Source: Bradyrhizobiaceae bacterium
GTDB lineage: Bacteria > Pseudomonadota > Alphaproteobacteria > Rhizobiales > Xanthobacteraceae
DNA: 64,000 nt
Direction: 5' to 3'
NCBI GenBank assembly: GCA_020544565.1
Contig: CP078014.1
Location: forward strand, 440,574 to 504,573
Each line of letters begins with the position of its first letter. Position 1 is the stretch's first letter. Position numbers and translations under genes: made by a program. Below are positions 7,604-33,234 of this stretch, piece after piece. The notes beneath the pieces are model-generated. The model worked only from the letters and a program-made list of their open reading frames with translations. It was not told the DNA's origin and searched no databases.

Positions 7604-7756
7604 CGGCGTTTCGCCTCGTTGTAGTCCATCGCGTCTTGCGGCGTGGCGTCCTCGCGCCGCGCCGCCATCTCTTTTTTGCGCAGGACGCGCGGGCGGCCCT
7701 CTCGCCGGTCCTGTCCGGCACGAGGCCGCCCTCCACATTTTGGCCCGCGAACCTCC

Positions 7757-7784
7757 TTGACAGGAAACAATCCTTCTGTACGGT
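7757..7784 (+). promoter_or_regulatory. Sigma-70-like promoter of the transporter operon
   Basis: A perfect -35 hexamer TTGACA (7757-7762) is followed after 16 bp by TACGGT (7779-7784) as a weak -10. It lies 82 bp upstream of the first permease gene and directly abuts the palindromic operator, so a bound repressor would block transcription start. Confidence 0.55.
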
Positions 7785-7805
7785 ATCAGATACCAACTGG
7801 TTGGT
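7782..7805. promoter_or_regulatory. Overlapping palindromes, candidate TetR operator
   Basis: Two inverted repeats overlap: GGTATC-A-GATACC (7782-7794) and ACCAAC-TG-GTTGGT (7792-7805). The second has the same CCRAC-N2-GTYGG design as the palindrome at 23215-23226 in front of the hydrolase gene. It sits at the expected transcription start of the transporter operon. Two TetR paralogues flank and end this cluster and are the likely binders. Confidence 0.6.
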
Positions 7806-7865
7806 TTTTAACTGCCGCGGATATGAGACAGACGGCAGGTCGCCACAATCCCGTCGGGAGGGTCG

Positions 7866-8732
7866 ATGTACGAACTGCTTGAGTTTTCCGCGCGCGGGGT
7901 CCTGCTCGGCGTGACTTACGGGCTGCTCGCGTTTCCGATCAGTTTGCTTTTCATCGCAACCGACACCGTCGATCTGGCGGTGGGGGCTTATGCGGTGCTG
8001 GCCGGTGCGGTCGCGATGTTCGTCGGCGGCAGCACGCACCCGGCGCTCGGCATGCTTGCGGGCGTTCTGGTCGGCGTCCTCGCGTCCGCGGCCATCGGCT
8101 CGGTTTCGCTGATGCTGGGCCGGCGTCAGAAGGGCGATCCCCTCGTTCTGGTGCTGGCGAGTTTCGGCTTCGCCATTCTCCTTGAGTCCGTGGTGCTGAC
8201 GCTGTTCGGCAAGGACCCGTTCATCCGTCAGCCTTTCTCGTATTTCTGGGATATCGGCGGCATCCGCATCAGCCCGCAGGCCGGCGTCAATGTTGTGGTC
8301 GGGCTGCTGCTGGTCGCGGCCGTCTATGGTCTTCTGTACCGCACCTCCTGGGGCCGCGACGTGCGCGCCAGCGCCAACAACGAACGGGCGGCGCTGCTGG
8401 CGGGGATTCCGGTGCGGGCGCTGCAATTCTCCGCGTTCATGCTGGCCGGATTGCTCGCGGGCATCGCCGGCGTTCTCGTGCTCTACACCTCGGGCATGGA
8501 TTTCGCGACCGGCATGCACCTGACACTGGCAGGTTTCGGCGCGGCGATCGTGTTCGGCCTGCACGGCCCGCTGCGCGGCTTCTTCGGCGGGCTGGCCATC
8601 GGCGTCGTCGAGACGATCAGCTCGGGCTATGTCAATGGCGGCCTCGCCAGCCTTGTCCCGCTGGTGTTCATTTTCGCCGTGCTGACGCTGGGGCGTGTCG
8701 GGCGACAAGGACCGGCGGGAGTTCGCGCATGA
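7866..8732 (+). CDS. Branched-chain-type ABC transporter permease (LivH family)
   Basis: First inner-membrane permease of the transporter, 288 residues with about eight hydrophobic segments and the LivH-type motif region ASANNERAALLAGIPV that contacts the ATPase. It begins with ATG after a GGGAGGG ribosome site and its stop overlaps the next start (ATGA), so permeases and ATPases are translationally coupled. It forms a heteromeric channel with the LivM-type subunit. The substrate is set by the two binding proteins nearby. The symbol is withheld because the substrate is probably not leucine. Confidence 0.92.
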   Translation: MYELLEFSARGVLLGVTYGLLAFPISLLFIATDTVDLAVGAYAVLAGAVAMFVGGSTHPALGMLAGVLVGVLASAAIGSVSLMLGRRQKGDPLVLVLASFGFAILLESVVLTLFGKDPFIRQPFSYFWDIGGIRISPQAGVNVVVGLLLVAAVYGLLYRTSWGRDVRASANNERAALLAGIPVRALQFSAFMLAGLLAGIAGVLVLYTSGMDFATGMHLTLAGFGAAIVFGLHGPLRGFFGGLAIGVVETISSGYVNGGLASLVPLVFIFAVLTLGRVGRQGPAGVRA

Positions 8733-9736
8733 CCTTCCTGCTGGCGCGCCATCGCGCGGCGATCGTTCTGGTCGCGGTGCTGGCGGTGATCACGATTCTC
8801 ATCCGCGGCAACACGGTGTGGCTCGATACCTCGGTGGTGATCGCGATCTATGCGCTGATCGCGTTGTCGGTCGGCATCAGCTACGGGCAGGCCGGCATTC
8901 TCTCGGTGGCGCAGGCGGCTTTCGCCTCGGTGGGGGCTTACGCCACCGCCATCGTGACCGCGCGCTACGATCTGCCGGCGGTGCTGGGGCTGCTTCTGGC
9001 GGTGGCGCTGCCTGCGCTCGTCGCCTATCCGCTGGCGCGGCTGGTGACGCGCCTCACCGCGCTGTCGCTGGCCATCGCGACGCTGGTGTTCGGGCAGGCG
9101 GTGGATATCGTCCTGCGCGAAGGCGGCGATTTCACCGGCGGCTATATCGGCCTGTCGGGTATTCCGCCGCTGCCGTTCGCGCCCGGCCTGCTGCACTACC
9201 ATCTGCTGGCCTGGGCCGCGGTGCTCGTGGTGGTGCTGCTGCTCGGCAATCTGATCGACTCGCCGTTCGGCCGCGCCGCGAACACGCTGCGTTCCGATAC
9301 GCTGCGCGCGGTCGCCGACGGGGTGAACGTGCCGCATGTCCGCAGCGCGATCCTTGCGTTCTCGGCCTCGGTCGCCGGCCTTGGCGGGTGGTTGTACGCG
9401 CATCACATCGGCTATATCGGCCCCGACTCCCTCGGTCCGTCGGTGTCGCTGTCGGTCCTGCTGATGGCGGTTGTCGGCGGCGCCCAGACCGTGCTCGGAC
9501 CCATCGTCGGCGCGGCGCTGTTGACGCTGCTGTTCAAGTTCATCCCGAGCCAGGAAGTGCAGGGCATATTCTATGGCGGCGCGCTCATCGCGGTTCTGGT
9601 GCTGACGCCGAACGGACTGATGGGGTTGCGGTCGCTATGGAAGCCGCGCCGCGCCACGCCCGCGGCAACGACTGCTCCGGAACGGCCGGCGGCGACGGCT
9701 GCGACCGGCGCGACCGCGGCGAGGGGCGCGTCATGA
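8729..9736 (+). CDS. Branched-chain-type ABC transporter permease (LivM family)
   Basis: Second permease subunit, 335 residues, many transmembrane helices, with the LivM signature GISYGQAGILSVAQAAFASV in the first third and a coupling region around LRAVADGVNVPHVRS. The C-terminus is an Ala/Thr-rich cytoplasmic tail (about the last 30 residues) of low complexity. Both ends overlap their neighbours by 4 bp (ATGA), which points to tight translational coupling with LivH upstream and the ATPase downstream. Confidence 0.92.
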   Translation: MTFLLARHRAAIVLVAVLAVITILIRGNTVWLDTSVVIAIYALIALSVGISYGQAGILSVAQAAFASVGAYATAIVTARYDLPAVLGLLLAVALPALVAYPLARLVTRLTALSLAIATLVFGQAVDIVLREGGDFTGGYIGLSGIPPLPFAPGLLHYHLLAWAAVLVVVLLLGNLIDSPFGRAANTLRSDTLRAVADGVNVPHVRSAILAFSASVAGLGGWLYAHHIGYIGPDSLGPSVSLSVLLMAVVGGAQTVLGPIVGAALLTLLFKFIPSQEVQGIFYGGALIAVLVLTPNGLMGLRSLWKPRRATPAATTAPERPAATAATGATAARGAS

Positions 9737-10494
9737 GCATCGAGGTCGCACAGGTCGGTGTCCGCTTCGGCGGCGTCACGGCGCTGCAGGATGTCGATCT
9801 GACCCTGACGCGCGGCGAGGTTCTCGCCGTCATCGGGCCCAACGGCTCCGGCAAGAGCACGCTCTTCAACGCGATCACCGGCTTCGTCGATATTGCATCC
9901 GGCCGCGTCGCCGTGGACGGCCGCGATCTGGCGGGCATGGCCGCGGAGAACCGGATCGCCAGCGGAATCTCGCGCACCTTCCAGACGCCGCGCATCAATC
10001 CCGCCGCGAGTGTCGAGGAAGCGGTGCTATGCGGATTTCATCCACACGCGCGGACGGGGTTCTGGCAGGGCCTGCTGCGGCCGCCGGCGATGGCGCGCAT
10101 GGAAGCGGAACTGCGCCAGCGCCGGACCCGCGTTCTCGAACAGCTCGATCTGCTCGGCTTCGCCCGACAGCAGATGGGCGAACTGCCGATGGGGATCGTG
10201 CGTCTGGTCGATATCGCCCGCGCCATGGCAGCGGAACCGAACTATCTGCTGCTCGACGAGCCGGCGGCGGGTCTCTCCAAGACCGAGCAGAATGTGCTGA
10301 TCCAGCAAGTGCGGCGGCTCGCCGGGCAGGGCGTCGGCGTGCTTCTCGTCGAGCACAATTTCGGTCTCGTCCGCCGTCTGGCCGATCGGGTGATGGTGCT
10401 CGATCGCGGCAAGGTCCTGCTGCGCGGCACCGCCGACGAGGTGAGCCGGCGGCCGGAATTCATCACCGCCTATCTCGGCACCAACAAGCAGTGA
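9733..10494 (+). CDS. ABC transporter ATP-binding protein (LivG family)
   Basis: Cytoplasmic ATPase of 253 residues that drives the LivHM-type channel. Walker A is GPNGSGKST (about 37-45), Walker B is YLLLDEPAAGL, and the switch histidine is in LLVEHNFG. The ABC signature is unusual: where LivG proteins normally have LSYGQ or LPYGD, this one reads LPMGIVRLVDIARAM, without the usual Gln/Asp. The start is the ATG overlapping the LivM stop. The frame is open far upstream in the +1 register, but that stretch is permease coding sequence. Function is probably retained because Walker A, Walker B and the histidine are intact. Confidence 0.9.
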   Translation: MSIEVAQVGVRFGGVTALQDVDLTLTRGEVLAVIGPNGSGKSTLFNAITGFVDIASGRVAVDGRDLAGMAAENRIASGISRTFQTPRINPAASVEEAVLCGFHPHARTGFWQGLLRPPAMARMEAELRQRRTRVLEQLDLLGFARQQMGELPMGIVRLVDIARAMAAEPNYLLLDEPAAGLSKTEQNVLIQQVRRLAGQGVGVLLVEHNFGLVRRLADRVMVLDRGKVLLRGTADEVSRRPEFITAYLGTNKQ

Positions 10495-10504
10495 GGGCCA
10501 CGTC

Positions 10505-11326
10505 ATGACCGGGATCGCTGTCGGTGCAAACGGGGTCGAGGCGGCCGCGCAGGCGGCGACGCCAATTCTGTCGTGCCGGAATGTCACCGCGCGCTATGGC
10601 CGGATCGAGGTGTGTCACGGCGTCGATCTGGCGGTGGCCGCGGGGGAGATCGTGGCCGTGCTGGGACCGAACGGCGCAGGCAAGAGCAGCTTTCTCGGCG
10701 CGGTCGCCGGTCTGGTCCAGGGCGATGGCGATGTCGCCGTCGGCGCTCAGGCTGTCAGCCATATGCCATCCCATCTCAGGGCACGGCACGGGCTGGCCTT
10801 CGTGCCGGAAATCCGTGGCAATCTGTGCCCCGCGCTGTCGGTGCAGGAAAATCTGGCGCTGGGGCTGCGGATGATCGAGGACGATCGCGATGCGGCGCTC
10901 CAGCGCGTGCTCACGCTGTTTCCGATTCTCAAGGAGCGGCTGGCCGCGCCCGCGGGCATGCTCAGCGGCGGCGAGCAGCAGATGCTGGCCATCGCCATGG
11001 CGGTGGCGCGCCGCCCGCGCGTGCTGATCCTCGACGAGCCGACCCAGGGTCTCGCGCCGACGGTCTACGACATTCTGCGGGCCACCTTCGCGACATTTCG
11101 CGACGAGGGCATGGCGATCGTCGTCGCCGAGCAGAACGTGCCCTTCGCCGCCAGCGTTGCCGATCGTTTCATCATGCTGGCGGACGGTCAGGTGGTGCTG
11201 CGCGGTGGTCACGACGACCTGCAGAACTATGACACCATTCTCGCCGCGTTCCTTGGCGGCGACGACGACACGTCGGATGCCGCCGGCGTGTCCGCAGTCT
11301 CACGGTTGAACGAGGTTCGTTCCTGA
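10505..11326 (+). CDS. ABC transporter ATP-binding protein (LivF family)
   Basis: Second ATPase subunit of the transporter, 273 residues. An N-terminal extension of about 20 residues precedes the fold. Walker A is GPNGAGKSS, the signature is the canonical LSGGEQQMLAIAMA, and Walker B is VLILDEPTQGLAP. The C-terminus carries a roughly 25-residue tail (DDDTSDAAGVSAVSRLNE) not usual for LivF. It begins 10 bp after the LivG-type stop, and its stop shares one base with the next ATG (TGATG). Confidence 0.92.
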   Translation: MTGIAVGANGVEAAAQAATPILSCRNVTARYGRIEVCHGVDLAVAAGEIVAVLGPNGAGKSSFLGAVAGLVQGDGDVAVGAQAVSHMPSHLRARHGLAFVPEIRGNLCPALSVQENLALGLRMIEDDRDAALQRVLTLFPILKERLAAPAGMLSGGEQQMLAIAMAVARRPRVLILDEPTQGLAPTVYDILRATFATFRDEGMAIVVAEQNVPFAASVADRFIMLADGQVVLRGGHDDLQNYDTILAAFLGGDDDTSDAAGVSAVSRLNEVRS

Positions 11327-12513
11327 TGTCTGACGCTTCTGATCCGGGACATCGTCCGTCCGGCCCGCTTGCGGGCATTCGTATCATCGACCTGTCGCGG
11401 CTCGCCCCGGGGCCCTACTGCACGATGCTGCTGGCCGATCTCGGCGCCGAGGTGATCGTCGTGGGCGGCGGCCGGGCGGGGCTGCCCGTCACCGAGTTGT
11501 CGCGCGGCAAGACCTTCATCTCGCTCGATCTCAAGAGCGCGGCCGGGAAGGAGGCGCTGCATCGTCTCGTTAGGACCGCGGACGCGCTGATCGAGGGATT
11601 CCGTCCCGGGGTCGCCGATCGCATCGGTGCAGGCTACGCCGAATTGCAGGCGATCAACCCGCGGCTGGTCTACTGCTCGATGACGGGTTACGGTCAGACC
11701 GGGCCGCGCGCGCAGGAAGCCGGGCACGATATCAACTATCTCGCGCTCAGCGGGCTGCTCGGCGCTGTCGGGCCGAAAAGCGAGGTGTCCTATCCGCCGC
11801 TGAACCTGCTTGCCGATTTCGGCGCCGGCGGTTTGCTGGCCGCCTTCGGCATCGTCACCGCGCTGTTCGAGGCGCGCGCCTCCGGACGCGGCCAGCACGT
11901 CGACGCCGCCATGGTGGATGGCTGCATGTCGATGATGGCGATGCATTATCCGGTCTGGAAGACGGCGATCATGCCGGGGCGCGGCGACGGCCTCATCACC
12001 GGCAACGCGCCGTTCTATCGCTGCTATCTCTGCGCCGATGGCCGGCAGGTGTCGGTGGGCGCGCTGGAATTGGCCTTCTTCCGCGCGCTGTGGACCACGC
12101 TCGATCTCGGCGCCATTCCTGATCACATGGACAGGGCGACCTGGCCGCTCGTCGAGCAGACGCTGGAGCGGGTATTCCGCTCGCAGCCGCGCGATCATTG
12201 GGCCGGCCTTTTCGCGGGCACGGACGCCTGCGTCGTGCCGGTGCTGTCGCCGGACGAGGTCTGGCAGGAGGCGCACAACAAGGCGCGCCATCCGGACGCC
12301 TCCGATGCCTGCGTGCCGGCCGTTCCCCGCTTCAGCCGCACGCCGTCCGCCCCCCGCGCGCTGGATCGGCGCGACCGCAGCCATGAGGTTCTGCGCTCGC
12401 TCGCCATGTCGGACGGCGACATCGCGGCGGCGGTGCCGTCCGATCCGGCCTCTGCGGTGGAAGGGCTGTCGTGGCCGCCCGCGCTGCGCAATTCCGCAAT
12501 CGCTGCTCAATAA
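11326..12513 (+). CDS. CaiB/BaiF family protein, alpha-methylacyl-CoA racemase-like
   Basis: Class III CoA-transferase superfamily member of 395 residues. The N-terminal motif LAGIRIIDLSRLAPGPYC and the central GHDINYLALSGLLGAVG are those of alpha-methylacyl-CoA racemase, where the Asp in GHDINY is a catalytic base. A racemase of 2-methyl-branched acyl-CoA esters is therefore more likely than a CoA transfer role, but family members are hard to separate by motif. It is translationally coupled to the ATPase gene (TGATG), so uptake and CoA-thioester processing are co-expressed. Confidence 0.82.
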   Translation: MSDASDPGHRPSGPLAGIRIIDLSRLAPGPYCTMLLADLGAEVIVVGGGRAGLPVTELSRGKTFISLDLKSAAGKEALHRLVRTADALIEGFRPGVADRIGAGYAELQAINPRLVYCSMTGYGQTGPRAQEAGHDINYLALSGLLGAVGPKSEVSYPPLNLLADFGAGGLLAAFGIVTALFEARASGRGQHVDAAMVDGCMSMMAMHYPVWKTAIMPGRGDGLITGNAPFYRCYLCADGRQVSVGALELAFFRALWTTLDLGAIPDHMDRATWPLVEQTLERVFRSQPRDHWAGLFAGTDACVVPVLSPDEVWQEAHNKARHPDASDACVPAVPRFSRTPSAPRALDRRDRSHEVLRSLAMSDGDIAAAVPSDPASAVEGLSWPPALRNSAIAAQ

Positions 12514-12524
12514 GGACAAGACCC

Positions 12525-13655
12525 ATGCAAGCAATGGACAAGCAGGCATATGAGACGTTTCGCGATACCCTGCGCCGCATCGCGGTGGACAAGGTCGCGC
12601 CGCATGCCGCCGAAGTGGACCGCACCAAGCAGCCCCCGGTGAAGTCTCACGCCGCGCTCAGCGAGGCCGGCATCGTCAGTCTCGGATTTCCGGAAGCGCA
12701 GGGCGGTCAGGGCGGGGATCTGCTGTCGCAGGTGATCGCGGTGGAGGAGATGGCGCGGGTCTGCGCCACCACCGGGCTCACGCTCATGACCGGCTGGGCG
12801 GCGCTGGACCCGCTGATCCGCTTCGGCGCGAAGGAGCTGATCGACGAGATCGTGCCGCCGGTGGCCGCAGGCAAGATGATCGCCGGCTGGTGCCTGACCG
12901 AGCCGCAGGGCGGGTCGGATCTGCCGTCGCTGAAAACGCGCGCCACGCGCGAGGGCAATCACTGGGTCATCAGCGGCACCAAGCGGTTCATCACCAACGC
13001 CACCTGGGCCGAATGGTATCTCGTGCTCGCCCGCACCGGCGAGAAAGCCTACGGCATCTTCATGGTGCATCGGGACGATCCCGGCCTGTCGTTCGGCAAG
13101 CTTGAAAACAAGATGGGATTGCGCGGCAGCCCCACCGCCGACGTGATCTTCGACAATTGCCGGATCCCCGCGAACCGGGCGATCGGAGACACCACCAAGG
13201 GCTACGAATACATGACCGTATCCCTGACGATCTCGCGGCCGCTGATCGGCGCGCAGGCGCTCGGGATCGCGCAGGGCGCCCTCGACGAGGCCGTGCTCTA
13301 TACCCGCGACCGCAAGCAGTTCGGCCAGTCGGTGTCGCGCTTCCAGATGGTGAGGGGGATGATCGCGGAGATGGCGGTCAAGGTCGAAGCCTCGCGCAGC
13401 CTGCTGTATCGCGCCGTCGAGGCGATCGAGGAGAGTCCGGCGGGCGGGCGTACGCTGGCGTCGATGGCCAAGATGCTGTGCAGCGATACCGCGATGCAGG
13501 TGGCGACCGACGCGGTCCAGCTTCACGGCGGCTATGGCTATCTCGAGGACTATCCGGTCGAACGGATGATGCGGGACGCCAAGATCACCCAGATCTATGA
13601 AGGCACCAACCAGATCCAGCGACTGATCATCGCCAAAAGCGTCTACGCGGATTGA
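12525..13655 (+). CDS. Acyl-CoA dehydrogenase
   Basis: FAD enzyme of 376 residues that forms or reduces the alpha-beta double bond of an acyl-CoA. The three-domain fold is visible: an N-terminal helical domain, a middle beta domain with GWCLTEPQGGSDLPSLKTRA and GTKRFITNA, and a C-terminal helical domain ending in YEGTNQIQR. The Glu in YEGT is at the position of the catalytic base in medium-chain enzymes. The ATG follows AAGGACAAG, 12 bp after the racemase-like stop. It sits between two CaiB-family genes, the same family pairing as CaiA with CaiB in carnitine metabolism. Confidence 0.92.
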   Translation: MQAMDKQAYETFRDTLRRIAVDKVAPHAAEVDRTKQPPVKSHAALSEAGIVSLGFPEAQGGQGGDLLSQVIAVEEMARVCATTGLTLMTGWAALDPLIRFGAKELIDEIVPPVAAGKMIAGWCLTEPQGGSDLPSLKTRATREGNHWVISGTKRFITNATWAEWYLVLARTGEKAYGIFMVHRDDPGLSFGKLENKMGLRGSPTADVIFDNCRIPANRAIGDTTKGYEYMTVSLTISRPLIGAQALGIAQGALDEAVLYTRDRKQFGQSVSRFQMVRGMIAEMAVKVEASRSLLYRAVEAIEESPAGGRTLASMAKMLCSDTAMQVATDAVQLHGGYGYLEDYPVERMMRDAKITQIYEGTNQIQRLIIAKSVYAD

Positions 13656-13658
13656 GCC

Positions 13659-14840
13659 ATGTCGGTTCTCAACGGAACGGTGGTGCTGGATATCAGCGAG
13701 GTCTATCAGGCGCCGCTGGCGGCGCAGGTGCTGGGCGATTTCGGCGCGACCGTCATCAAGATCGAGCGGCCCGGCACCGGCGAAATCCTGCGCGTCTATG
13801 ACAGTCACGCCACCGCGCAGGGCACGATGAGCAGCTACTACGCGGCGGTCAACCGCAACAAGAAGTCGCTCGCTGTCGATCTCAAGAGCGAGGCCGGCGT
13901 CGCCGTCGTCAGACGGCTCGCAGCCAGTGCCGACGTGTTCCTGCACAATTACCGCCCGGGCGTGATGGAGCGTCTCGGCCTCGGCTACGAGCAACTCAAG
14001 CAGGCCAATCCGCGGCTGGTCTATGCCGAATCGAGCGGCTACGGCGACACCGGGCCGCTGTCGCGCAGCCCCGGGCAGGACATGGCGATCCAGTCCCTCA
14101 GCGGCATCGCGGTCGGCAACGCCAGGCCCGACGGGTCGCCCGCACTGGTGAACACGCCGGTGGTCGATTTCGCCGCGGGCATGATCCTGGCGCAGGGCGT
14201 CGTGCTGGCGCTGCTCGAACGCGAGCGCTCGGGGCAGGGGCAGAAGGTGCAGACCTCGCTCCTCAACGCCGCCATCGCCATGCAGAGCCTCGAAGCCGGA
14301 TCGCAACTGGTCTACGGCTACGAGACGCGCTGGATCAACAAGAGCCTCAACTTCATCTTCCAGACCAGCGACGGATGGATCACCGTTCTCGGCTTCTTCC
14401 GCGTCAATCCGCTGCAACTGCTGTGCGCGGCATTCGACATTGAGGATATGAGCGCGCGCGAGGGCCTCGGTACCGCCGCCGCGCAGCTCGAACGTAAGGC
14501 CGACATCTACGATCGGCTGCGGCCGGAATTCCTGCGCTTCAGCACGGAGGAATGTCTCGCCCGTCTGGTGAAGCAGGACATTCTGTGCTCGCCGGCTCTG
14601 TCGCTGGCCGAGGCGCTGGATCATCCGCAGGTGCGCCACAACGGCATGGTCGTCGAGGTGCTGATGCCGGACGGCGGACGGGCCGAGGTGGTCGGCAATC
14701 CGCTTCGCCTGTCGCGAACGCCGCCATCGGTAACGCATGGGCCGCCGCAACTGGGGGCCCATAGCGAGGAGATCCTGCGCTCATTCGGATTTACGGATGA
14801 GGAGATCGCGGAGCATCGCCGGGGCGGTGGTCTCGGCTGA
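13659..14840 (+). CDS. CaiB/BaiF family CoA-transferase
   Basis: Second class III CoA-transferase of the operon, 393 residues. The motif SPGQDMAIQSLSG aligns with the catalytic Asp region of formyl-CoA transferase and CaiB, and an upstream HNYRPGVMERLGLGYEQL block is typical. This copy looks like a true CoA-transferase, in contrast to the racemase-like copy at 11326. Starts 3 bp after the acyl-CoA dehydrogenase stop. Likely moves CoA from an acyl-CoA product to an incoming carboxylate. Confidence 0.88.
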   Translation: MSVLNGTVVLDISEVYQAPLAAQVLGDFGATVIKIERPGTGEILRVYDSHATAQGTMSSYYAAVNRNKKSLAVDLKSEAGVAVVRRLAASADVFLHNYRPGVMERLGLGYEQLKQANPRLVYAESSGYGDTGPLSRSPGQDMAIQSLSGIAVGNARPDGSPALVNTPVVDFAAGMILAQGVVLALLERERSGQGQKVQTSLLNAAIAMQSLEAGSQLVYGYETRWINKSLNFIFQTSDGWITVLGFFRVNPLQLLCAAFDIEDMSAREGLGTAAAQLERKADIYDRLRPEFLRFSTEECLARLVKQDILCSPALSLAEALDHPQVRHNGMVVEVLMPDGGRAEVVGNPLRLSRTPPSVTHGPPQLGAHSEEILRSFGFTDEEIAEHRRGGGLG

Positions 14841-14885
14841 ACTGAATCGAAGCATGCAATCAATCACCATTGGGAGGAAATCAAG

Positions 14886-16031
14886 ATGAAGCGAAGATCG
14901 GTAGTTCTGGCACTTGGAGCGCTCGTCCTTGCCGGCGGCGTGCAGATGCAAACAGCGCGTGCGGCGGAGCCGTTGCGGATCGGGTTGCTGTTGAGCCTCA
15001 CCGGGCCGGCGGCGCCGTTCGGCATTCCCGAGCGCGACGCCGTCGAGATTCTGGTCCGCAAGATGAACGAGGAAGGCGGGATCAACGGCCGCAAGATCGA
15101 GCTGTCGGTCTATGACGACGCCACCAACCCCACCGAGGCGGCGCGCGGGGCGACGCAACTGATCCAGCAGAACAACGTGGTTGCGATCATCGGAGCGACC
15201 ACCGGCAGCGGAACGCTTGCGGCCGCGCCGGTCGCCATGCGTTACGAGGTGCCGATGGTGGCGCCCAACGGCACGCTTGCGGTCACGCTGAAGGAAAACA
15301 AGTTTTATCCCTGGGTATTCCGTTCGCTCTCGGGCGATCTGACCAACACCGCCGTGATGTTCGACCGCGCGATCGCCGGCGGCGCCAAGAAGGTCGGCCT
15401 GTTCTATCAGGAGGACGCCTACGGCAAGAACACCGCTGACTACATCGCCGAACTCGCCAAGAAGGCCAATGTCACGCTGGTCGAGACCGCGACGGCGCCG
15501 CTCAAGGCCCTCGACCTGACGTCGCAGGCCACCAAGATCCGCAATGCCAAGCCGGACGTGGTGCTGATCCAGGCGTCCGCTCCGGCGCTCGGGGCCGCTT
15601 TCGTGCGCGCCGCCCGTCAGGTCGGCCTAGATACGCCGATGTGGGCTCCGGTCGGCCTCGGCCAGAAGTCCTTCATTGAAGGCAGCGGCGAGGCGGGGAA
15701 CGGCGTCCGCATCGTGCTGGTCGCGAACTGGGACGAGCCGAGCAAGGAGCTGCAGGAGTTCGGCAAGATTCTGAACGCCGCCGGCAAGCCGCCGCAGGGT
15801 TTCGGCGAGGTCATCGGATCGAACGCGCTGCTGGCGATCACCGAGGCCGTCAAAACCATCAAGGGTGAGGTGACGGGTCGCGCCATTCGTGATGCAATGG
15901 AAAAGCTGTGCGGAATCAAGACCTATTCCGCGGGGCGGATGTGCTTCTCGCCGGACACCCATGACGGCTGGACGGGCGAACTGCTCGTCTCGGCGGAAAT
16001 GCGCGACGGCAAGTTCAAGAACCTCAAATAG
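14886..16031 (+). CDS. ABC transporter periplasmic binding protein, branched-chain/HAAT type (copy 2)
   Basis: Periplasmic receptor of 381 residues with a signal peptide (cleavage after RAA near residue 26) and the same block order as the receptor at 6455: IGLLLSLTGPAAPFGIPE, GGINGRKIELSVYDDATNP, FYQEDAYGKN, and a C-terminal YSAGRMCFSPDTHDGW. The pair clearly arose by duplication. It follows a GGGAGGA ribosome site. Its place inside the CoA-ester operon suggests it recognises a related or processed substrate and feeds the same LivHMGF complex. Confidence 0.9.
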   Translation: MKRRSVVLALGALVLAGGVQMQTARAAEPLRIGLLLSLTGPAAPFGIPERDAVEILVRKMNEEGGINGRKIELSVYDDATNPTEAARGATQLIQQNNVVAIIGATTGSGTLAAAPVAMRYEVPMVAPNGTLAVTLKENKFYPWVFRSLSGDLTNTAVMFDRAIAGGAKKVGLFYQEDAYGKNTADYIAELAKKANVTLVETATAPLKALDLTSQATKIRNAKPDVVLIQASAPALGAAFVRAARQVGLDTPMWAPVGLGQKSFIEGSGEAGNGVRIVLVANWDEPSKELQEFGKILNAAGKPPQGFGEVIGSNALLAITEAVKTIKGEVTGRAIRDAMEKLCGIKTYSAGRMCFSPDTHDGWTGELLVSAEMRDGKFKNLK

Positions 16032-16072
16032 GAGGTCGCGCCCGAGCGCGGCAAGGACAACGGAAAGCGCCC

Positions 16073-17740
16073 ATGACCCAACACGATGAAACAACCGTCG
16101 GAGAATGCATTCGCGCACGCGCCGCGACGTTCCCCGACCGGGTTGCGATCGAGATGATTGGCGAAGGGCGCGAGACCTATTCCGAATGCTTTGCCGCGTC
16201 GTCGCAATTGGCCCGTGGCCTGCTGGCCGCGGGCGTCCGCCGCAATGACACGGTGGTGGTGATGGCGCCGAACTGCCTCACCACGATTCACGCCTGGCTG
16301 GGCGTGAATCTGGCGGGGGCCACGGAAGTCGCCATCAACACGGCGTATCGCGCCAGGCTGCTGGAGCACGCGGTCAATATCTGCGGCGCGCGGGTGATGA
16401 TCGCCGCCGCCGAATTTCTTCCGGTTCTTTACGACAGCGAGGATGCGTTGCCGCACCTCGAACAGATCATCTGTTTCGATGCGCCGGGCGCTGCGTCACC
16501 GTCGGCGTTGCCGGCCTTCCGCCGGATCGCGGTGGTGCCTCTCCGTGAGGTGCTCGCTCGCGCGTCGGACGCGGATCTGCCCGTGGTGGGCATGTCCGAT
16601 ATCGCTTCGGTGATCTACACCTCGGGGACGACGGGGCCGGCCAAGGGCATCATGATGCCCCATGCGCAGGTCTGCGGTCTTGCCCGACAATCGATCGACG
16701 GCCTGCGCCTCGATGGCACGGACGCCTTCTATTGCTTCCATCCGCTGTTTCACATGGCCGGAAAATTCATGGCCGTGTTCGCGACGCTGATGGCGGGCGG
16801 TCGCGTGATTCTCGACCGGACGTTCAAGGCCGACCTGTGGGTCGATCGCGTGCGTGACTATGGCGCGACGGTCGGGCTGGCGCACGGACCGATGGTGGAG
16901 ATGATCCACGCCCAGCCGGAGCGGCGCGAAGATCGCGAGCACAAGGTGCGGCGCTTGCTGACGGCGCCGTTCCCCAAGGCGATCGGGTATCAGTTCGAGG
17001 CGCGCTTCGGCCTGAAAGGGATCGAGGTCTGGGGCATGACCGAGATCAATATCGGCACCTGGCGTCCCTACGACGATCCGCTGCGGCCGGGTTCATGCGG
17101 CCGCGTCAGCGACGAATGGGTCGAATTGCGCGTCGTCGATCCGGAAACCGACGAGGAATTGCCCACGGGGCAGGCCGGCGAACTGGTGGTGCGGCCGAAG
17201 AAGCCGTTCGTGTTCATGGCCGGCTATATCGGGATGCCCGAGAAAACGCTTCAGGCCTGGCGCAATCTCTGGTTCCATACGGGCGATATCGGCTATTTCG
17301 ACAGCGAAGGATATTGCTATTTCGTCGATCGCCTCGGCGACCGCATCCGGCGTCGTGCGGAGAACATTTCCAGCTACGACATCGAGGCGGCGGCGGCAGG
17401 TCATCCGGCCGTGGCCGAAGCGGCGGCCGTGGGCATCGCGTCGGAGTTCGAGGCCGATGACGAGATCAAGATCTGTCTCGTGGCGAAGCCGGACATGACG
17501 GTCGCGCCGGAAGACATGCTGCGCTATCTGGCGGGCGTGCTGCCGCACCACATGGTGCCCCGCTACATCGAATTCATGTCGGCCCTGCCGCGGACGCCGA
17601 CCAACAAGATCAAGAAGGCCGAGTTGCGCGAGCGGGGAGCAACGCCGCAAACCTGGGATCGCAAGCAGTCCGGCCTTGCCTTGAAGGATGTGGTCGCGTC
17701 TGTTCGTTCCGGAGCTGCGCAGGCTGGGCCTTCGCGCTAG
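16073..17740 (+). CDS. CaiC-like AMP-forming acyl-CoA ligase
   Basis: Acyl-CoA synthetase of 555 residues that activates a carboxylic acid with ATP and CoA via an acyl-adenylate. Adenylation motifs are intact: YTSGTTGPAKG (A3), WGMTE (A5), a hinge region with GDRIRRRAENISS (A8), and the C-terminal lysine in PTNKIKKAELR (A10). The GDRIRRRAENISSYDIE segment is close to crotonobetaine/carnitine-CoA ligases. It is the entry enzyme of the pathway fed by the transporter. The spacing of 132 bp to the next gene is the largest inside the run. Confidence 0.9.
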   Translation: MTQHDETTVGECIRARAATFPDRVAIEMIGEGRETYSECFAASSQLARGLLAAGVRRNDTVVVMAPNCLTTIHAWLGVNLAGATEVAINTAYRARLLEHAVNICGARVMIAAAEFLPVLYDSEDALPHLEQIICFDAPGAASPSALPAFRRIAVVPLREVLARASDADLPVVGMSDIASVIYTSGTTGPAKGIMMPHAQVCGLARQSIDGLRLDGTDAFYCFHPLFHMAGKFMAVFATLMAGGRVILDRTFKADLWVDRVRDYGATVGLAHGPMVEMIHAQPERREDREHKVRRLLTAPFPKAIGYQFEARFGLKGIEVWGMTEINIGTWRPYDDPLRPGSCGRVSDEWVELRVVDPETDEELPTGQAGELVVRPKKPFVFMAGYIGMPEKTLQAWRNLWFHTGDIGYFDSEGYCYFVDRLGDRIRRRAENISSYDIEAAAAGHPAVAEAAAVGIASEFEADDEIKICLVAKPDMTVAPEDMLRYLAGVLPHHMVPRYIEFMSALPRTPTNKIKKAELRERGATPQTWDRKQSGLALKDVVASVRSGAAQAGPSR

Positions 17741-17872
17741 TTTCGGGATAATGGCTGTCTCCGCTCCGCCGGGTGGAGCGCGGAGGCGACGCGACTGGAT
17801 CAACACGCCCCGGAGTATTCTCCGGCTCGATGCGAACGGGCCGGACGTTCGATAGGACAAGAAGGATTGGCG

Positions 17873-20800
17873 ATGCTCAAGGAAGCCACTGTCTCGCTGG
17901 AAGACAAGTACACGCTGGAGCGCGGACGCATCTATCTGTCCGGCGTGCAGGCCCTCGTCCGGCTGCCGCTGATGCAGCGCGCCCGCGATCGGAAGAACGG
18001 TCTCAACACCGGCGGCTTCATCTCCGGATATCGCGGTTCGCCGCTCGGCAATTATGACAGCGCGCTGTGGCGTGCCCGCTCGCATCTGGTGGCCGAGAAC
18101 ATCCGGTTCGAGCCGGGTCTCAACGAGGATCTTGCCGCCACCGCCGTCTGGGGCAGCCAGCAGGTCGGGCTGTTTCCGGGCGCCGAGGTCCAGGGCGTTT
18201 TCGGCATCTGGTATGGCAAGGGGCCGGGCGTCGATCGCTCGGTGGATGCGCTGAAGCATGCCAACGCGGCCGGGACCTCGCGATTCGGCGGCGTGCTGGC
18301 GCTGGCGGGCGACGACCACGGCTGCCAGTCCTCGACGCTGGCGCATCAGAGCGAGCAGGTGTTTCAGGCCGCGATGATGCCGATCCTCAATCCGTCGACG
18401 GTGCAGGAATATCTCGATTTCGGCCTCTTCGGATTTGCGCTGTCCCGTTTCTCCGGATGCTGGATCGGTTTCAAGGCGATCTCCGAGGCGGCGGAAAGTT
18501 CGGCCTCGATCGACGTCGATCCCGACCGGCTTCAATTCGTGACGCCGGCGGATTTCGAGGCGCCCGTCGGGGGCCTGCACATCCGCTGGCCGGATCCGCC
18601 GCTCGACGCGGAAGCGCGGCTGCACGGGCCGAAGATGGCGGCGGTGGCGGCGTTCGCGCGGGCCAATCCGGTCGACCGCCTTGTTCTCGATTCACCGCAG
18701 GCGCGCTTCGGCATTCTGACCACCGGCAAGGCTTACCTCGATGTCCGTCAGGCGCTGGCCGAACTGGGGCTGAACGAGGAGCGGTGCCGGGATCTCGGCC
18801 TGCGCGTCTACAAGGTCGGGCTGACCTGGCCGCTCGAAGTGGAGGGCGCGCGGAATTTCGCGCGCGGTCTCGCCGACGTTCTGGTGGTCGAGGAGAAACA
18901 GGGCTTCATCGAGCAGCAGTTCACCCAGGCGCTCTACAACATGGATGCGTCGCACCGGCCGAGCGTGGTCGGCAAGCGCAGCGAGAACGGCGCCGAACTT
19001 CTGCCGAGCAAAGGCGAACTGTCGCCGACGCTGGTGGCGCGGGCGATCGTCTCCCGGCTGGCGCGAATGGGAATCGACAGCCAGGCGCTGGCCCAGCGCG
19101 TCGCGCGGCTGGAGAGCTTCGAACTGGTGGCCACCACGCCCCAGATCAAATCGGTGCGCTCGCCGTTCTTCTGCTCCGGCTGTCCGCACAACTCCTCCAC
19201 CGTGGTTCCGGAAGGCAGCCGCGCGATGGCGGGCATCGGCTGCCATAGCATGGCGATGTGGATGCCGGCGCGCCGCACCGATCTCGTCACCCACATGGGC
19301 GCGGAAGGCGTCAACTGGATCGGGCAGGCGCATTTCACGCGCGAAAAGCACGTCTTCCAGAACCTGGGCGACGGCACCTACACCCACAGTGGCCTGCTGG
19401 CGATCCGTGCCGCCGCCGTGGCCGGCGTCAACATCACCTACAAGATTCTCTACAACGACGCGGTCGCGATGACCGGCGGCCAGTCGGCCGAAGGCAGCTA
19501 CAACGTGCCGCAGATCGCCGCGCAGGTGGCGGCCGAAGGCGCGCGCCGCATCGTCATCGTGTCCGACGAGCCGGGCAAATATGGCGCCGTCAGCGGCCTT
19601 CCCGCCGGGGTGACGGTGCATGACCGCAGCGACCTCGATGCCGTCCAGCGCGAATTGCGCGATATTCCGGGGCTGACGATCTTGATCTACGATCAGACCT
19701 GCGCGGCCGAGAAGCGCCGCCGCCGCAAGCGCGGGCAGTTTCCGGACCCGCAGAAGCGCGTCTTCATCAACCATCAGGTCTGCGAAGGCTGCGGCGATTG
19801 TTCGGTCAAGTCCAACTGCGTCTCGGTCCGTCCGCTGGAAACCGAACTCGGACGCAAGCGGACGATCGATCAGTCGAGCTGCAACAAGGACTATTCCTGT
19901 CTCAACGGCTTCTGCCCAAGCTTCGTCACCGTGCATGGCGGCAAGCTTCGCAAGGCCGAGAAGAAGGCCGCCCGTATTGCGGACGATCCGTTTGCGGCGC
20001 TGCCCGAGCCGCCGCCGCTGGCGCTGAACGAACCTTACAACGTGCTGGTGACCGGAATCGGCGGCACAGGCGTCATCACGCTCGGCGCCATTCTGGGAAT
20101 GGCCGCCCATCTCGAAGGCAAGGGCTGCACCGCGCTGGATTTCACCGGCCTCGCCCAGAAGAATGGCGCGGTGATGAGCCATCTGCGGATCGCGCCCGCG
20201 CCCGAGGACCTGTCGGTCACGCGCATTCCGGTCGGCGGGGCCAATCTGCTGATCGGCTGCGACATGGTGGTGGCGGCCGGCGCACAGGCGCTGTCGCGTC
20301 TCGAGAACGGCGTCTCCCGCGCGGTGATCAACATGTCGCTGGTGCCGACCGCGAGCTTCGTGGCCGACGGCAACGTCGATTTCGAGGAACGGCAGATTTT
20401 CGAGGCGCTGCGGGCCGCCGTCGGCGGCAAGGGCCTCGATCTCGTCGACGGCGCGCGGATCGCCACCGCCCTGATGGGCGATTCCATCGCCACCAATCTT
20501 TTCATGCTGGGCTTCGCCTTCCAGAAGGGGCTGGTGCCGGTCGGTCTCGCCGCGCTGGAGCGTGCCATCGAAATCAACGGCACGTCCGTCGATGCCAACA
20601 AGCAGACCTTTGCATGGGGACGGCTCGCCGCGCACGATCCGGCGCGGGTCGAAGCGGCGATTGCCCCCAACGTCGTGCCGCTGGAGGTGCCGAAATCTGT
20701 CGAGGCCCGCGTCGTCTACCGTGCCGATATCCTTACCCGCTATCAGGATGCGGCCTACGCCGAGAGCTACCGCAATCTGGTGTCCCGCGTGCGGGACGCC

Positions 20801-21355
20801 GAGATGCGGTGCATACCCGGCAGCACCGCATTGTGGGAGGCCGCCGCCCTCGGCCTGTTCAAGCTGATGGCGATCAAGGACGAGTACGAAGTTGCCCGCC
20901 TTTATACGGACGGTGCTTTCCTGGCGGATCTGCAGCGGCAGTTCGAAGGCGACTATCGGCTCGAATTTCATCTGGCGCCGCCGTTGCTGGCGAAGCGCGA
21001 TGCGGCGAGCGGCCATCTCAGGAAGCGTGCGTTCGGTCCGTGGATGTTCCGCCTGTTCGGCCTGCTCGCGAAACTGCGCGGGCTGCGGGGCGGCGCCTTC
21101 GACATCTTCGGCTACACGGCCGAACGTCGAATGGAACGGCAACTGCGGATGGATTATCAGGGCCTGCTCGAGCGGCTGATCGCGGGGTTGACGCCGGAGA
21201 ACCATGCCGTCGCGGTCGAACTGGCGAAGCTGCCCGAGACCATCAGGGGCTTCGGCCATGTCAAGGAGCGCCACGCGGCGACGGCCCGCGAACGGGAGGC
21301 AGATCTGATCGCGAAGTTTGACGATCCCTCACTTCTCAAGGTGGCTGCCGAGTGA
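17873..21355 (+). CDS. Indolepyruvate:ferredoxin oxidoreductase family protein (fused alpha-beta)
   Basis: Giant 2-oxoacid:ferredoxin oxidoreductase of 1160 residues that would convert an aryl or branched 2-oxo acid and CoA to acyl-CoA, CO2 and reduced ferredoxin. Order: pyrimidine-binding domain (about 20-400), a CSGCPHNSS block (434), the TPP-binding domain with GDGTYTHSG near 498, a Cys-rich iron-sulfur region (VCEGCGDC near 637, then SCNKDYSCLNGFC), an IorB-like gamma domain (VTGIGGTGVITLG, about 720-910) and a C-terminal DUF6537-type region. A TTG at 17867 is in frame, but the ATG at 17873 lies 6 bp after AAGGA and is preferred. Its stop overlaps the TetR GTG. Confidence 0.9.
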   Translation: MLKEATVSLEDKYTLERGRIYLSGVQALVRLPLMQRARDRKNGLNTGGFISGYRGSPLGNYDSALWRARSHLVAENIRFEPGLNEDLAATAVWGSQQVGLFPGAEVQGVFGIWYGKGPGVDRSVDALKHANAAGTSRFGGVLALAGDDHGCQSSTLAHQSEQVFQAAMMPILNPSTVQEYLDFGLFGFALSRFSGCWIGFKAISEAAESSASIDVDPDRLQFVTPADFEAPVGGLHIRWPDPPLDAEARLHGPKMAAVAAFARANPVDRLVLDSPQARFGILTTGKAYLDVRQALAELGLNEERCRDLGLRVYKVGLTWPLEVEGARNFARGLADVLVVEEKQGFIEQQFTQALYNMDASHRPSVVGKRSENGAELLPSKGELSPTLVARAIVSRLARMGIDSQALAQRVARLESFELVATTPQIKSVRSPFFCSGCPHNSSTVVPEGSRAMAGIGCHSMAMWMPARRTDLVTHMGAEGVNWIGQAHFTREKHVFQNLGDGTYTHSGLLAIRAAAVAGVNITYKILYNDAVAMTGGQSAEGSYNVPQIAAQVAAEGARRIVIVSDEPGKYGAVSGLPAGVTVHDRSDLDAVQRELRDIPGLTILIYDQTCAAEKRRRRKRGQFPDPQKRVFINHQVCEGCGDCSVKSNCVSVRPLETELGRKRTIDQSSCNKDYSCLNGFCPSFVTVHGGKLRKAEKKAARIADDPFAALPEPPPLALNEPYNVLVTGIGGTGVITLGAILGMAAHLEGKGCTALDFTGLAQKNGAVMSHLRIAPAPEDLSVTRIPVGGANLLIGCDMVVAAGAQALSRLENGVSRAVINMSLVPTASFVADGNVDFEERQIFEALRAAVGGKGLDLVDGARIATALMGDSIATNLFMLGFAFQKGLVPVGLAALERAIEINGTSVDANKQTFAWGRLAAHDPARVEAAIAPNVVPLEVPKSVEARVVYRADILTRYQDAAYAESYRNLVSRVRDAEMRCIPGSTALWEAAALGLFKLMAIKDEYEVARLYTDGAFLADLQRQFEGDYRLEFHLAPPLLAKRDAASGHLRKRAFGPWMFRLFGLLAKLRGLRGGAFDIFGYTAERRMERQLRMDYQGLLERLIAGLTPENHAVAVELAKLPETIRGFGHVKERHAATAREREADLIAKFDDPSLLKVAAE

Positions 21356-22077
21356 ACGAGAAGATCAATGCGCGCAGCAGGCATTCCCTTTTCATGAAGG
21401 CAGAGGCGAACGCCCGCCCGCCGGTGCGGCTGGCATCGATGGTGAACAAGCGGAGGGCGGAGCCGTCGCAGCAGGCCACGGTCGATCGTCTGTGCGATGC
21501 CGCGCTCGAACTGTTCGTGAAGAAGGGATACCGGGCGACGACGATCGACGAGATCGCGCGTCGCGTCCGCCTGACCAAGGGGGCGGTCTATTATCATTTC
21601 CGCAGCAAGGCCGATTTACTCGATACGATCGTCGAACGCGTCAGGAACGAGTATCCGTGCGGCATTCCGGAGGGCGACGGGCCGCGCGAGAAGCTCGTCA
21701 ATTTTTTCCATACGCAGGCCAAGTGGGCGATCGAGCGCCCGACCAACCTGCTGTTGATGATCCTGATGTCGGTCGAATTCAAGGACACCAAGAGCGCCAC
21801 CAAGCTGAAGATCGATGCCATTTACGCCGACATGTCGGACGCCATCGCGAAGATCGTCGACGAAGGCAAGGAGCTCGGCGTGTTTTCCAGCCCGCTGTCG
21901 TCGCGGCAGCTCGGCGCGTTCTATGTCGCGGCCCATGACGGCATGATGCTCGAATGGTATCGCGGCGGCCGCAAGCTGCAAAAGGGCGTGGAGCTGGTTC
22001 AGGCCCTGCGCACATCGATGCTGAGCGCGCTGTCGGCTGCCGATGCCGGCGGAAAATCCACTGCGACACCGACTTAG
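21352..22077 (+). CDS. TetR family transcriptional regulator (paralogue of 3085-3777)
   Basis: Regulator of 241 residues whose GTG start overlaps the oxidoreductase stop (GTGA), so it is coupled to the catabolic operon and probably autoregulated. The helix-turn-helix is [20 protein letters not shown], and the ligand domain shares [15 protein letters not shown] with the other TetR. An ATG at 21394 is an alternative start. It is a likely ligand of the palindromes at 7792-7805 and 23215-23226; the inducer would be a pathway acyl-CoA or acid (inference). Confidence 0.88.
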
Positions 22078-22079
22078 CT

Positions 22080-22109
22080 CGCGGCTCCGCCGGATGTGGC
22101 GGAGCCGCG
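22080..22109. terminator. Hairpin between convergent TetR and hydrolase genes
   Basis: A perfect 12-bp stem, CGCGGCTCCGCC / GGCGGAGCCGCG with a 6-base loop, starts 3 bp after the TetR stop. There is no long T run on either side, so it may act as a weak bidirectional terminator. Confidence 0.55.
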
Positions 22110-22119
22110 TTCGTTGCGC

Positions 22120-23151
22120 TCAGATGCCGAGTTCGCCGCGGAGCGCGTGCGCGGCCAGAAGGAAGAAGCCCTGTCCGAACAGGGTTGTCCCGAACGGCAC
22201 GCCGGGACCGCCCGGCGGCACCGCCACGCCCGGCACCGCGCCATCGTTCTGCACCGAGCCGGCGACGACCTGCCAGGCTTTGACGGCGCCCGCGATGAAA
22301 TCGTCGCCGACGATCTTCTGGCGCGCCGCCGTTCGCGCGGCATAGGCATACATCAGCGTCGCCGACGCTTCGAATTTCGCATAGCGGTCGTCGAGGATGT
22401 GATGGAAGAAGCCGGAGCGGTCCTGGTGGACGCGCATGGCTTCGAGGGCGCGGCGGCATGTCTCCGCGACGACGCCGGCTTTGGCGTGATCGGGAGCCAT
22501 CGCCAGCATGTCCACGGAGCAGGCGACCAGCCAGCCGTTGCCGCGCGCCCACAGCGTCGATTGCGGATAGTGGTTGGGGCGCTCGCACCAGGCGTGCCGC
22601 GCGAGATGGACGTGCGGGTCGACCAGATGCTTGACGTGAATCTCGAACTGGCGGAACGCCTCGTCGATAGTGGACTGCTGCCCGGTCAGCTTGCCGTAGC
22701 GGATCAGGAACGGGCACATCATGTAGAGAAAATCGACCCACAATTCGGGGGCTTCGACCCGCGCGCAGATGCCGCCTTCGGTGGTCCGGGGCGCGGCGAG
22801 GAGCGCATCCATCTGCAATCTGGCGGCCTCCATGTAACGCGCTTCCTTGGTGCGCTCGTAGAAGCCGAGCAGGGGGTAGCCGAGGCTGGCGGAAAGGCTG
22901 GCCGTCGGCGTGAACGTCGAGACGTGGCCGGCCGGAAGATTCAGCCGCTCGCTGTAGTTGAGGCAGCCTTCGGAAGTCTGGGTGTCGACGGCGCGGTCCA
23001 TCCATGTCTGGATCGCGGCGATCGAGTCGTCGCGCTCCCATGCCAGAACGCCGGTCAGCGCCGGGGCTTTCTCCCAGTAGTCGCGCTCGTAGGGATTGTT
23101 GACGGTGTAGGCGATGACTTTCTCGACGAGCTTCGAAGGTTCGATGGCCAC
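22120..23151 (-). CDS. GH88/GH105-like unsaturated glycuronyl hydrolase
   Basis: Protein of 343 residues with the alpha/alpha-barrel pattern of glycoside hydrolase families 88 and 105, which remove unsaturated uronic acids from pectin- or glycosaminoglycan-derived oligosaccharides by a hydration mechanism. Key marks are [14 protein letters not shown] (the Asp in WVD matches the catalytic Asp of YteR-type enzymes) and [19 protein letters not shown]. No signal peptide, so it acts in the cytoplasm. It is convergent with the TetR gene, and a TetR-type palindrome lies 64 bp upstream. Why a uronide hydrolase sits beside CoA-ester genes is not explained; the true substrate may be a uronide-like conjugate. 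Confidence 0.82.
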
Positions 23152-23214
23152 GCGCTGTCCTTTCCTTGTTTGCCGGACTTTTTTGAAAGCGGAAGATCGC
23201 GATCAATCTACAAC

Positions 23215-23226
23215 CCGACCGGTCGG
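23215..23226. promoter_or_regulatory. Perfect palindrome upstream of the hydrolase gene, candidate TetR operator
   Basis: CCGACCGGTCGG is a perfect 12-bp palindrome, extended by AC/GTAT flanks. Read as CCGAC-N2-GTCGG it matches the CCAAC-N2-GTTGG repeat at the transporter promoter. It is 64 bp upstream of the hydrolase start and suggests shared control by one of the TetR paralogues. Confidence 0.55.
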
Positions 23227-23594: not shown

Positions 23595-23609
23595 GAACAT
23601 ATTGCGAAC
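23595..23609. promoter_or_regulatory. SOS box (LexA site) of recA
   Basis: GAAC-ATATTGC-GAAC is an exact match to the alphaproteobacterial LexA operator GAAC-N7-GAAC. It is 122 bp upstream of the recA start. A third GAAC follows at 23613-23616. Confidence 0.85.

Positions 23610-23731: not shown

Positions 23732-24820
<1,089 letters not shown>

Positions 24821-30555: not shown

Positions 30556-33234
<2,679 letters not shown>

Follow-up and report, generated by a model that had tools for sequence, protein, structure and literature searches.

Bacteria break ether bonds only with difficulty, and the known routes mostly rely on oxygenases, lyases or etherases. Carboxylic acids can be handled as CoA esters, as in the caiTABCDE genes of Escherichia coli, the carnitine and crotonobetaine operon. 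When unsaturated uronates are hydrated, water is added at the carboxylate-bearing carbon, and opening of the product gives a 5-keto acid, one of the 2-oxo acids. The enzymes of families GH88 and GH105 carry out such hydration on the C4=C5 enol ether of delta-4,5-uronates (PMC4528949, excerpted text). Here we describe a locus in which these two kinds of enzymes stand together. It lies in a stretch of 64,000 nucleotides (the window) from a Bradyrhizobiaceae bacterium (contig CP078014.1, positions 440,574 to 504,573), the genome of which is one contig of 4.13 Mb, and it encodes a Liv-type transporter, an alpha-methylacyl-CoA-racemase-type (AMACR) enzyme, an acyl-CoA dehydrogenase, a class III CoA-transferase (CaiB2), a CaiC-like ligase, a fused indolepyruvate-type 2-oxo-acid:ferredoxin oxidoreductase (IOR) and a GH88/GH105-fold protein. 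Judged by its recurrence in other bacteria, the gene set is more than a product of chance and is a real, conserved unit, the GH88/GH105-family gene included. We tentatively propose, with a confidence somewhat short of even, that the unit is a catabolic route for a chiral carboxylic acid the alpha carbon of which bears an ether oxygen (or a comparable heteroatom), perhaps as part of a ring. The enzyme families are known. An earlier interpretation of the same DNA (the sequence-only reading) had called the combination undescribed, and as far as the open-access literature shows, no operon with this combination has been reported (most subscription journals fall outside that coverage).

The same reading had proposed a search for the gene set in other genomes, and the set does recur. 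Genome contigs were scanned with a profile from four aligned GH88-like proteins, and 18 loci were recovered, in Afipia, Herminiimonas, Bordetella, Verticiella, Parapusillimonas, Alcaligenaceae, Acidovorax, Seongchinamella, Pseudohalioglobus, Advenella, Variovorax and metagenome-assembled genomes (MAGs) of Hyphomicrobiales and Pseudomonadota. Alpha- (Afipia), beta- (Verticiella) and gammaproteobacteria (Seongchinamella) are thus covered. Two genomes supply two loci each (L055 and L071; L054 and L061), L065 and L066 are 94.7% alike over the compared stretch, and the scan can miss divergent members because two short peptide patterns were used. AMACR lies within reach at 17 of the 18 loci, three times as a partial gene at the end of the stretch (the exception is L061, on a 12.8-kb contig), and the dehydrogenase and CaiB2 at 16 (all but L054, at a contig end, and L061). 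When CaiB2 served as the anchor, 299 relatives yielded eight genomes with ten places (E up to 1e-95), nine of which have a GH88-family gene, AMACR and the dehydrogenase; the tenth (G804:C15, 46%) is without them. CaiB2 (E up to 1e-110) was found in Acidovorax alone among 250 sampled genomes of the Acidovorax family, and the GH88-like gene (E up to 1e-50) in two of 397 evenly sampled genomes of the order. Co-inheritance of GH88, AMACR, dehydrogenase and CaiB2 is evident from their pairwise distances, which correlate between the four genes (r 0.94-0.97; 16 loci with all four complete). The window proteins are also closer to those of Variovorax (58-69% identity) than to the proteins of L055, the second-type Afipia locus (53-59%). 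The block therefore seems to travel as a whole, which suggests that it has been transferred between bacteria.

Catalytic residues are largely kept in the CoA enzymes. His126, Asp156 and Glu241 of MCR, the roles of which are described in the excerpted PMC12682127, are present in the window AMACR and in all 19 rows of the alignment, and the family Asp of CaiB2 in 20 of 20. The catalytic Glu of the dehydrogenase is found in 18 of 21 rows, three rows from Seongchinamella and Pseudohalioglobus having Asp. The window is among these rows, up to three loci are counted twice, and matches with less than 75% coverage or 45% identity were dropped. MCR is also reported to bind alpha-sulfur acyl-CoAs as inhibitors (PMC12682127, same excerpt).

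The GH88-like gene of the sequence-only reading is real, but it lies on the minus strand, opposite to the rest of the run (Table 1). An AlphaFold2 model of the protein (18 sequences; mean pLDDT 83.2, pTM 0.87) has its nearest solved folds in GH105, namely 3qwt (Z 38.7) and YteR (1nc5; Z 38.0, rmsd 2.2 over 317 residues). Cellobiose epimerase and GH76 are in the structural match list as well, where they reflect the general barrel fold, and we do not count them as relatives. Relatives with roughly 33-40% identity occur on haloarchaeal plasmids (L104-L107), some near CaiB, MaoC or sugar-acid dehydratase genes. The YteR pocket is given as nine residues in the consulted part of PMC4528949. In a profile alignment, YteR Trp141, Asp143, His189, Trp211 and Trp217 correspond to W138, D140, H186, W201 and W207, which are invariant in 18 of 18 GH88-like sequences. 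With a modelled six-hairpin barrel and a catalytic Asp of the YteR Asp143 type, the predicted structure is that of a GH88/GH105 member.

The fold and the catalytic Asp would also suit an actual glycosidase, which would release an acidic aglycone from a conjugate with an unsaturated uronide (or from another conjugate) and leave the breakdown of the aglycone to the CoA enzymes; the pectin-like setting of a haloarchaeal relative fits this as well. However, delta-4,5-uronides are normally lyase products, and no polysaccharide lyase, uronate or 4-deoxy-uronate genes, the markers of glycosaminoglycan or pectin loci, were found among the scanned genes of the loci and their neighbours (some flanking genes were unscanned), and we consider a glycosidase improbable.

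A second GH88 lineage occurs with the same enzymes. Three of the nine GH88-bearing CaiB2 places (G027, G753 and G788) have no GH105-like gene and carry instead a gene resembling unsaturated glucuronyl hydrolase (UGL), which adjoins CaiB2 on the same strand in each. The G027 copy matches UGL with E 4.9e-46 and Pfam GH88 with 29.7 bits, the copies of G753 and G788 are 56% and 57% identical to it, and the counterpart of UGL Asp149 is kept in all three. Compared directly (profile versus a single sequence), the GH105-like and UGL-like lineages show no significant similarity. That either of two GH88 lineages can accompany the same four CoA enzymes is the best single reason to count a GH88-type reaction as a step of the pathway. 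At G027 (L041/L047), integrase-core (transposase-like) genes flank the unit, one of them overlapping a shortened LivF-like frame, and this suggests that the unit there is a mobile island.

The enzyme acting on 2-oxo acids appears, from the gene content of the loci, to be a replaceable step of the unit: either IOR or a benzoylformate-decarboxylase-like enzyme dependent on thiamine diphosphate (ThDP). The window IOR reaches 1701.7 bits against a cut-off of 952 for NF009588 and belongs to that family. A fused IOR is present in 10 of the 18 loci, or 11 when the extended Variovorax locus (L082) is counted, and the ThDP enzyme in six; none has both, and L054 has neither. The ThDP gene sits left of GH88 in L056, L058, L059, L060 and L068, and L062 has it by similarity. 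The five that were scanned (L056, L058, L059, L060 and L068) pass NF005760, "acetolactate synthase large subunit", a name that may be misleading, the nearest solved structures of the L056 copy being benzoylformate decarboxylases; both names imply work on 2-oxo acids. All 16 genomes searched have fused IOR paralogues, so it is the gene within the unit that is swapped and not the IOR of the genome as a whole. In the window genome there are six DUF6537 (IOR-type) loci, and at three of them the reading frame could accommodate the fused form. Examined motifs are kept with small variations in 14 IOR rows, one row being cut off at the first motif. In a tree of 36 sequences, for which the program warns of long branches, the cluster IORs need three changes, at least two of them forced by supported branches: there are a main clade of eight and the three of the window type, the placement of Variovorax is unresolved, and L061 falls among non-cluster copies. 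As the cluster IORs are not one clade, IOR has probably been recruited into the unit more than once. EdcC offers a precedent for a fused-type IOR in aerobic catabolism (PMC7793797, in the part consulted).

An IOR beside a Liv-type transporter agrees by family logic with a branched-chain or aryl 2-oxo-acid pathway resembling that of isoleucine, in which IOR would form an alpha-branched acyl-CoA, AMACR would correct its stereochemistry and the dehydrogenase would desaturate it, while the ligase and CaiB2 would salvage free acids and GH88 would have a side role. L061, where the IOR lies near HPPD and a phenylalanine-hydroxylase-family gene, can be read in the same way; that IOR is counted among the 11 and is not relied upon. 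We hold such a pathway to be unlikely, for a GH88-family gene, in two lineages, is as constant as the core enzymes, IOR is swapped for a non-homologous enzyme or missing, and no aminotransferase was recognised among the scanned window genes. We did not retain ordinary degradation of branched-chain amino acids as the main reading, since GH88 would then have no explanation.

Import, a CoA ester, isomerisation at the alpha carbon and desaturation, as the sequence-only reading had suggested, fit the enzyme families and the conserved AMACR residues. Its substrate, an alpha-branched or aryl carboxylate, seems too narrow: with GH88 integral and the 2-oxo-acid enzyme replaceable, the unit points to enol-ether hydration to a 2-oxo acid. 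In the scheme that we propose, the acid would be imported by the Liv transporter (by TctC receptors in other loci), a first CoA ester would come from the CaiC-like ligase, the AMACR-type enzyme would epimerise the alpha carbon and the acyl-CoA dehydrogenase would introduce an alpha,beta double bond, giving an enol ether. CaiB2 would then transfer CoA from the desaturated product to the next substrate and free the carboxylate, and CaiB moves CoA likewise in carnitine metabolism. In the sixth step, the GH88-like enzyme would add water to the enol-ether alpha carbon and the C-O bond would break into a 2-oxo acid and an alcohol, which would be one molecule if the ether is in a ring. Finally, the 2-oxo acid would be decarboxylated by IOR, or by the ThDP decarboxylase in other loci. 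Each enzyme would be used once and a crotonase would not be needed. Swaps between loci are observed at the first, sixth and seventh steps. A Liv-type permease is present in seven of 11 IOR-type loci (the extensions L035 and L083 counted) and was not recognised in L061 and L064-L066, and two TctC receptors are found in all six ThDP-type loci. The order of the steps, the ether and the substrate are what we infer.

The identical enzyme set could also run in the reverse order. An imported enol ether or unsaturated uronide would be hydrated by GH88 to a 2-oxo acid, which IOR would turn into an acyl-CoA, and AMACR and the dehydrogenase would act last; with the ThDP enzyme, an aldehyde would be formed and later oxidised and ligated. 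The distribution of the CaiC-like ligase agrees with this, as it is present in six of six ThDP-type loci and was not seen in five of 11 IOR-type loci (L055, L057 and L064-L066). However, the ThDP-type loci have no relatives of two aldehyde dehydrogenase queries, an unsaturated acyl-CoA would be left without a hydratase in the unit and CaiB2 would have no clear purpose, and the reverse order therefore seems to us a poor candidate.

Several observations weigh against the proposed route through an enol ether. In the GH88-like proteins, YteR His132 is not kept, Met147 is shared by some members but not by most, and the aligned block does not reach Tyr41 and Asp88. By gapless extension of the alignment, Asp88 would face a non-conserved position; its counterpart is Asn in YesR/RhiN according to the excerpt of PMC4528949. 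In the second lineage, the G027 copy has Gln at the position of UGL His193 and no residue opposite UGL Asp88, and the stretches read at the three UGL-type loci contain no IOR or ThDP enzyme. In the plasmid collection, the GH88 gene has its nearest relatives in haloarchaea, where the neighbouring genes of some are of a sugar-acid or pectin-like kind. In L064-L066 the catalytic Glu of the dehydrogenase is replaced by Asp, and these loci carry two mandelate-racemase/enolase-superfamily genes like sugar-acid dehydratases (L064 and L065 were scanned), which hints at a sugar-acid-like substrate. The CaiC-like ligase is within reach at 12 of the 18 loci and was not seen at six, among them L054, at a contig end. 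Finally, the AMACR subfamily is found as well at loci that lack both GH88 and CaiB2 (L036, L037, L086 and L087); among AMACR matches with their surroundings read, those of G046, G068, G258 and G237 are 58-64% identical and have GH88 and CaiB2 missing.

The UGL-type loci give a more specific indication of the substrate. All three have an iron-type alcohol dehydrogenase, in two of them between the dehydrogenase and AMACR, which scores 550.4, 568.2 and 569.1 bits against the NCBIfam cut-off of 500 for 4-hydroxybutyrate dehydrogenase. Tetrahydrofuran-2-carboxylate would, by the proposed steps, give 5-hydroxy-2-oxopentanoate and, after decarboxylation, a 4-hydroxybutyrate derivative. It is the simplest candidate for these loci because the predicted product family fits the equivalog found there. 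The alpha-alkoxy model, in which cyclic ethers were named and the 4-hydroxybutyrate product was not, predates the match. The full form of the idea is CoA-dependent ether cleavage, in which the dehydrogenase makes an enol ether and a GH88/GH105 enzyme outside sugar metabolism hydrates it, with two lineages recruited to four CoA enzymes and with tetrahydrofuran-2-carboxylate or close relatives as substrates of the type bearing 4-hydroxybutyrate dehydrogenase; we regard it as doubtful in this entirety, although worth stating. Only six of 18 genomes with the GH105-type unit (some of them incomplete MAGs) have a 4-hydroxybutyrate dehydrogenase over the cut-off, and the stretches read around that unit contain none. 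The tetrahydrofuran case therefore does not hold for the unit in general; in the window genome the gene is present, far from the unit. Nine of 21 unit-bearing genomes exceed the cut-off, versus 12 of 81 relatives, a difference that is weak and confounded by taxonomy: five of the 81 carry the unit (two of them over the cut-off), and 10 of the 76 without it are over the cut-off as well. Cupriavidus necator JMP134 degrades tetrahydrofurfuryl alcohol (PMC2842291, excerpted text); on a tetrahydrofurfuryl or tetrahydrofuroate route, the open-access literature gave nothing useful.

In the window itself, the run of genes from LivH to TetR that the sequence-only reading had placed on one strand with mostly tiny gaps was borne out (Table 1). 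Families were assigned by Pfam and NCBIfam, and the intergenic gaps range from -43 (at the opening of the dehydrogenase reading frame; +11 with its likely ATG) to +126 bases. Likewise, no crotonase or thiolase was found among the scanned window genes of 1..33234, where some genes were unscanned. The unit had been taken to begin at 7782, which is the first base of a GGTATCAGATACC palindrome ahead of livH. Its start probably lies further upstream, as the FAD oxidoreductase and the first binding protein keep their order in both other window-type loci; this oxidoreductase was found only in loci of the window type. The two others, in Afipia MAG 46_gen (L035, L042, L071) and Hyphomicrobiales MAG SCN18 (L069, L083, L122), share the gene order of the window (TetR0, LysR, FAD oxidoreductase, binding protein, LivHMGF, AMACR, dehydrogenase, CaiB2, binding protein, ligase, IOR, TetR and convergent GH88). 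The closest named locus is L069 of the latter, with GH88 89% identical; the ligase and GH88 copies of Afipia MAG 46_gen have broken frames, from either assembly error or decay. The listed solved relatives of the binding proteins are distant and mixed, and they point to no ligand.

Table 1. Features of the locus, with positions in the window.
Feature	Position	Strand	Basis or remark
LysR-type regulator	3817..4749	-	Pfam; divergent from FAD oxidoreductase; equivalent position in L035, L083
PF12831 FAD-dependent oxidoreductase	4874..6331	+	Pfam; 89% and 91% identity in L035 and L083
Liv-type substrate-binding protein 1	6395..7603	+	PF13458
GGTATCAGATACC palindrome, candidate operator/promoter ahead of livH	7782..7794		kept in 3/3 aligned window-type loci
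LivH-type permease	7866..8732	+	PF02653
LivM-type permease	8729..9736	+	PF02653
LivG-type ATPase	9733..10494	+	Pfam/NCBIfam
LivF-type ATPase	10505..11326	+	Pfam/NCBIfam
AMACR-type CaiB-family enzyme	11326..12513	+	MCR 1x74, E 4.1e-89; His/Asp/Glu kept
Acyl-CoA dehydrogenase	12525..13655	+	likely ATG 12525, open reading frame opens 12471; catalytic Glu in IYEGTNQIQ
CaiB2, class III CoA-transferase	13659..14840	+	Pfam/NCBIfam; family Asp present
Liv-type substrate-binding protein 2	14886..16031	+	family assignment (Pfam) and distant solved relatives
CaiC-like AMP-forming acyl-CoA ligase	16073..17740	+	Pfam/NCBIfam
Fused indolepyruvate-type 2-oxo-acid:ferredoxin oxidoreductase (IOR)	17867..21355	+	NF009588; likely ATG 17873
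TetR-family regulator	21352..22077	+	PF00440
GH88/GH105-fold protein, proposed enol-ether hydratase	22120..23151	-	PF07470, 155.3 bits; convergent with TetR

The palindrome, together with TTGACA and about 50 bases, is kept in the two other loci of the window gene order. Its core, GTATCNGATAC, is also present once in L086, an unrelated stretch. In the 4.13-Mb genome, the 17-base pattern GGTATCNGATACCNACT is matched exactly at a single site, and two more matches with two mismatches are at the level of the backwards control. Given the position of TetR as the last gene and the conserved palindrome before livH, control of the plus-strand run by TetR is plausible. Besides TetR, a LysR gene stands at the upstream end of the unit. 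Elsewhere in the window, an ordinary glycine riboswitch (RF00504, 63.2 bits; 30157-30256, minus strand) precedes a minus-strand GcvP gene (25397-28258).

If the proposed route is true, beta-oxidation enzymes and a recruited sugar-type hydratase would form a new strategy for breaking ethers, the GH88/GH105 families would extend beyond carbohydrate metabolism, and a horizontally shared gene set so far under generic family names would gain a function. Whether or not the ether idea is right, an explanation is needed for the conservation of the unit, for the presence of two GH88 lineages in it and for the exchange of its 2-oxo-acid enzymes. Among known systems, the IOR prompted comparison with two. 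The iad auxin loci of Variovorax and Bradyrhizobium also have IOR-type subunits beside catabolic genes (PMC9613470, in the part consulted), and EdcC, an IOR-family enzyme of aerobic estrogen degradation, uses CoA in decarboxylating a 2-oxo acid of the catabolic route (PMC7793797, excerpt). Both readings were set aside because the other pathway enzymes are lacking: IadDE and the MarR regulator, by the definition in the PMC9613470 excerpt, are not among the scanned genes of 1..33234, and P450 EdcA and dioxygenase EdcB, by that in the PMC7793797 excerpt, are not among the scanned window genes, where neither a cytochrome P450 nor a ring-cleavage dioxygenase was recognised. With the carnitine cai operon, the unit shares the acyl-CoA dehydrogenase family, a CaiB CoA-transferase, a CaiC ligase, and CoA activation and recycling on a carboxylate. 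In contrast to that operon, it adds an AMACR-type racemase, IOR and a GH88-like enzyme, and has no CaiD crotonase among the scanned genes; the window proteins stay far below the NCBIfam cut-offs for CaiA, CaiB and CaiC (176.8 against 540, 87.9 against 413 and 226.7 against 651 bits) and are not cai members. Unlike the genes of GH88 (UGL) and GH105 (YteR) hydrolases, the window gene is joined to CoA-ester enzymes, with no lyase or uronate genes seen alongside, whereas its product has in common with these enzymes the fold, the catalytic Asp and several pocket residues and, as we propose, the chemistry of enol-ether hydration (described for them in the excerpted PMC4528949).

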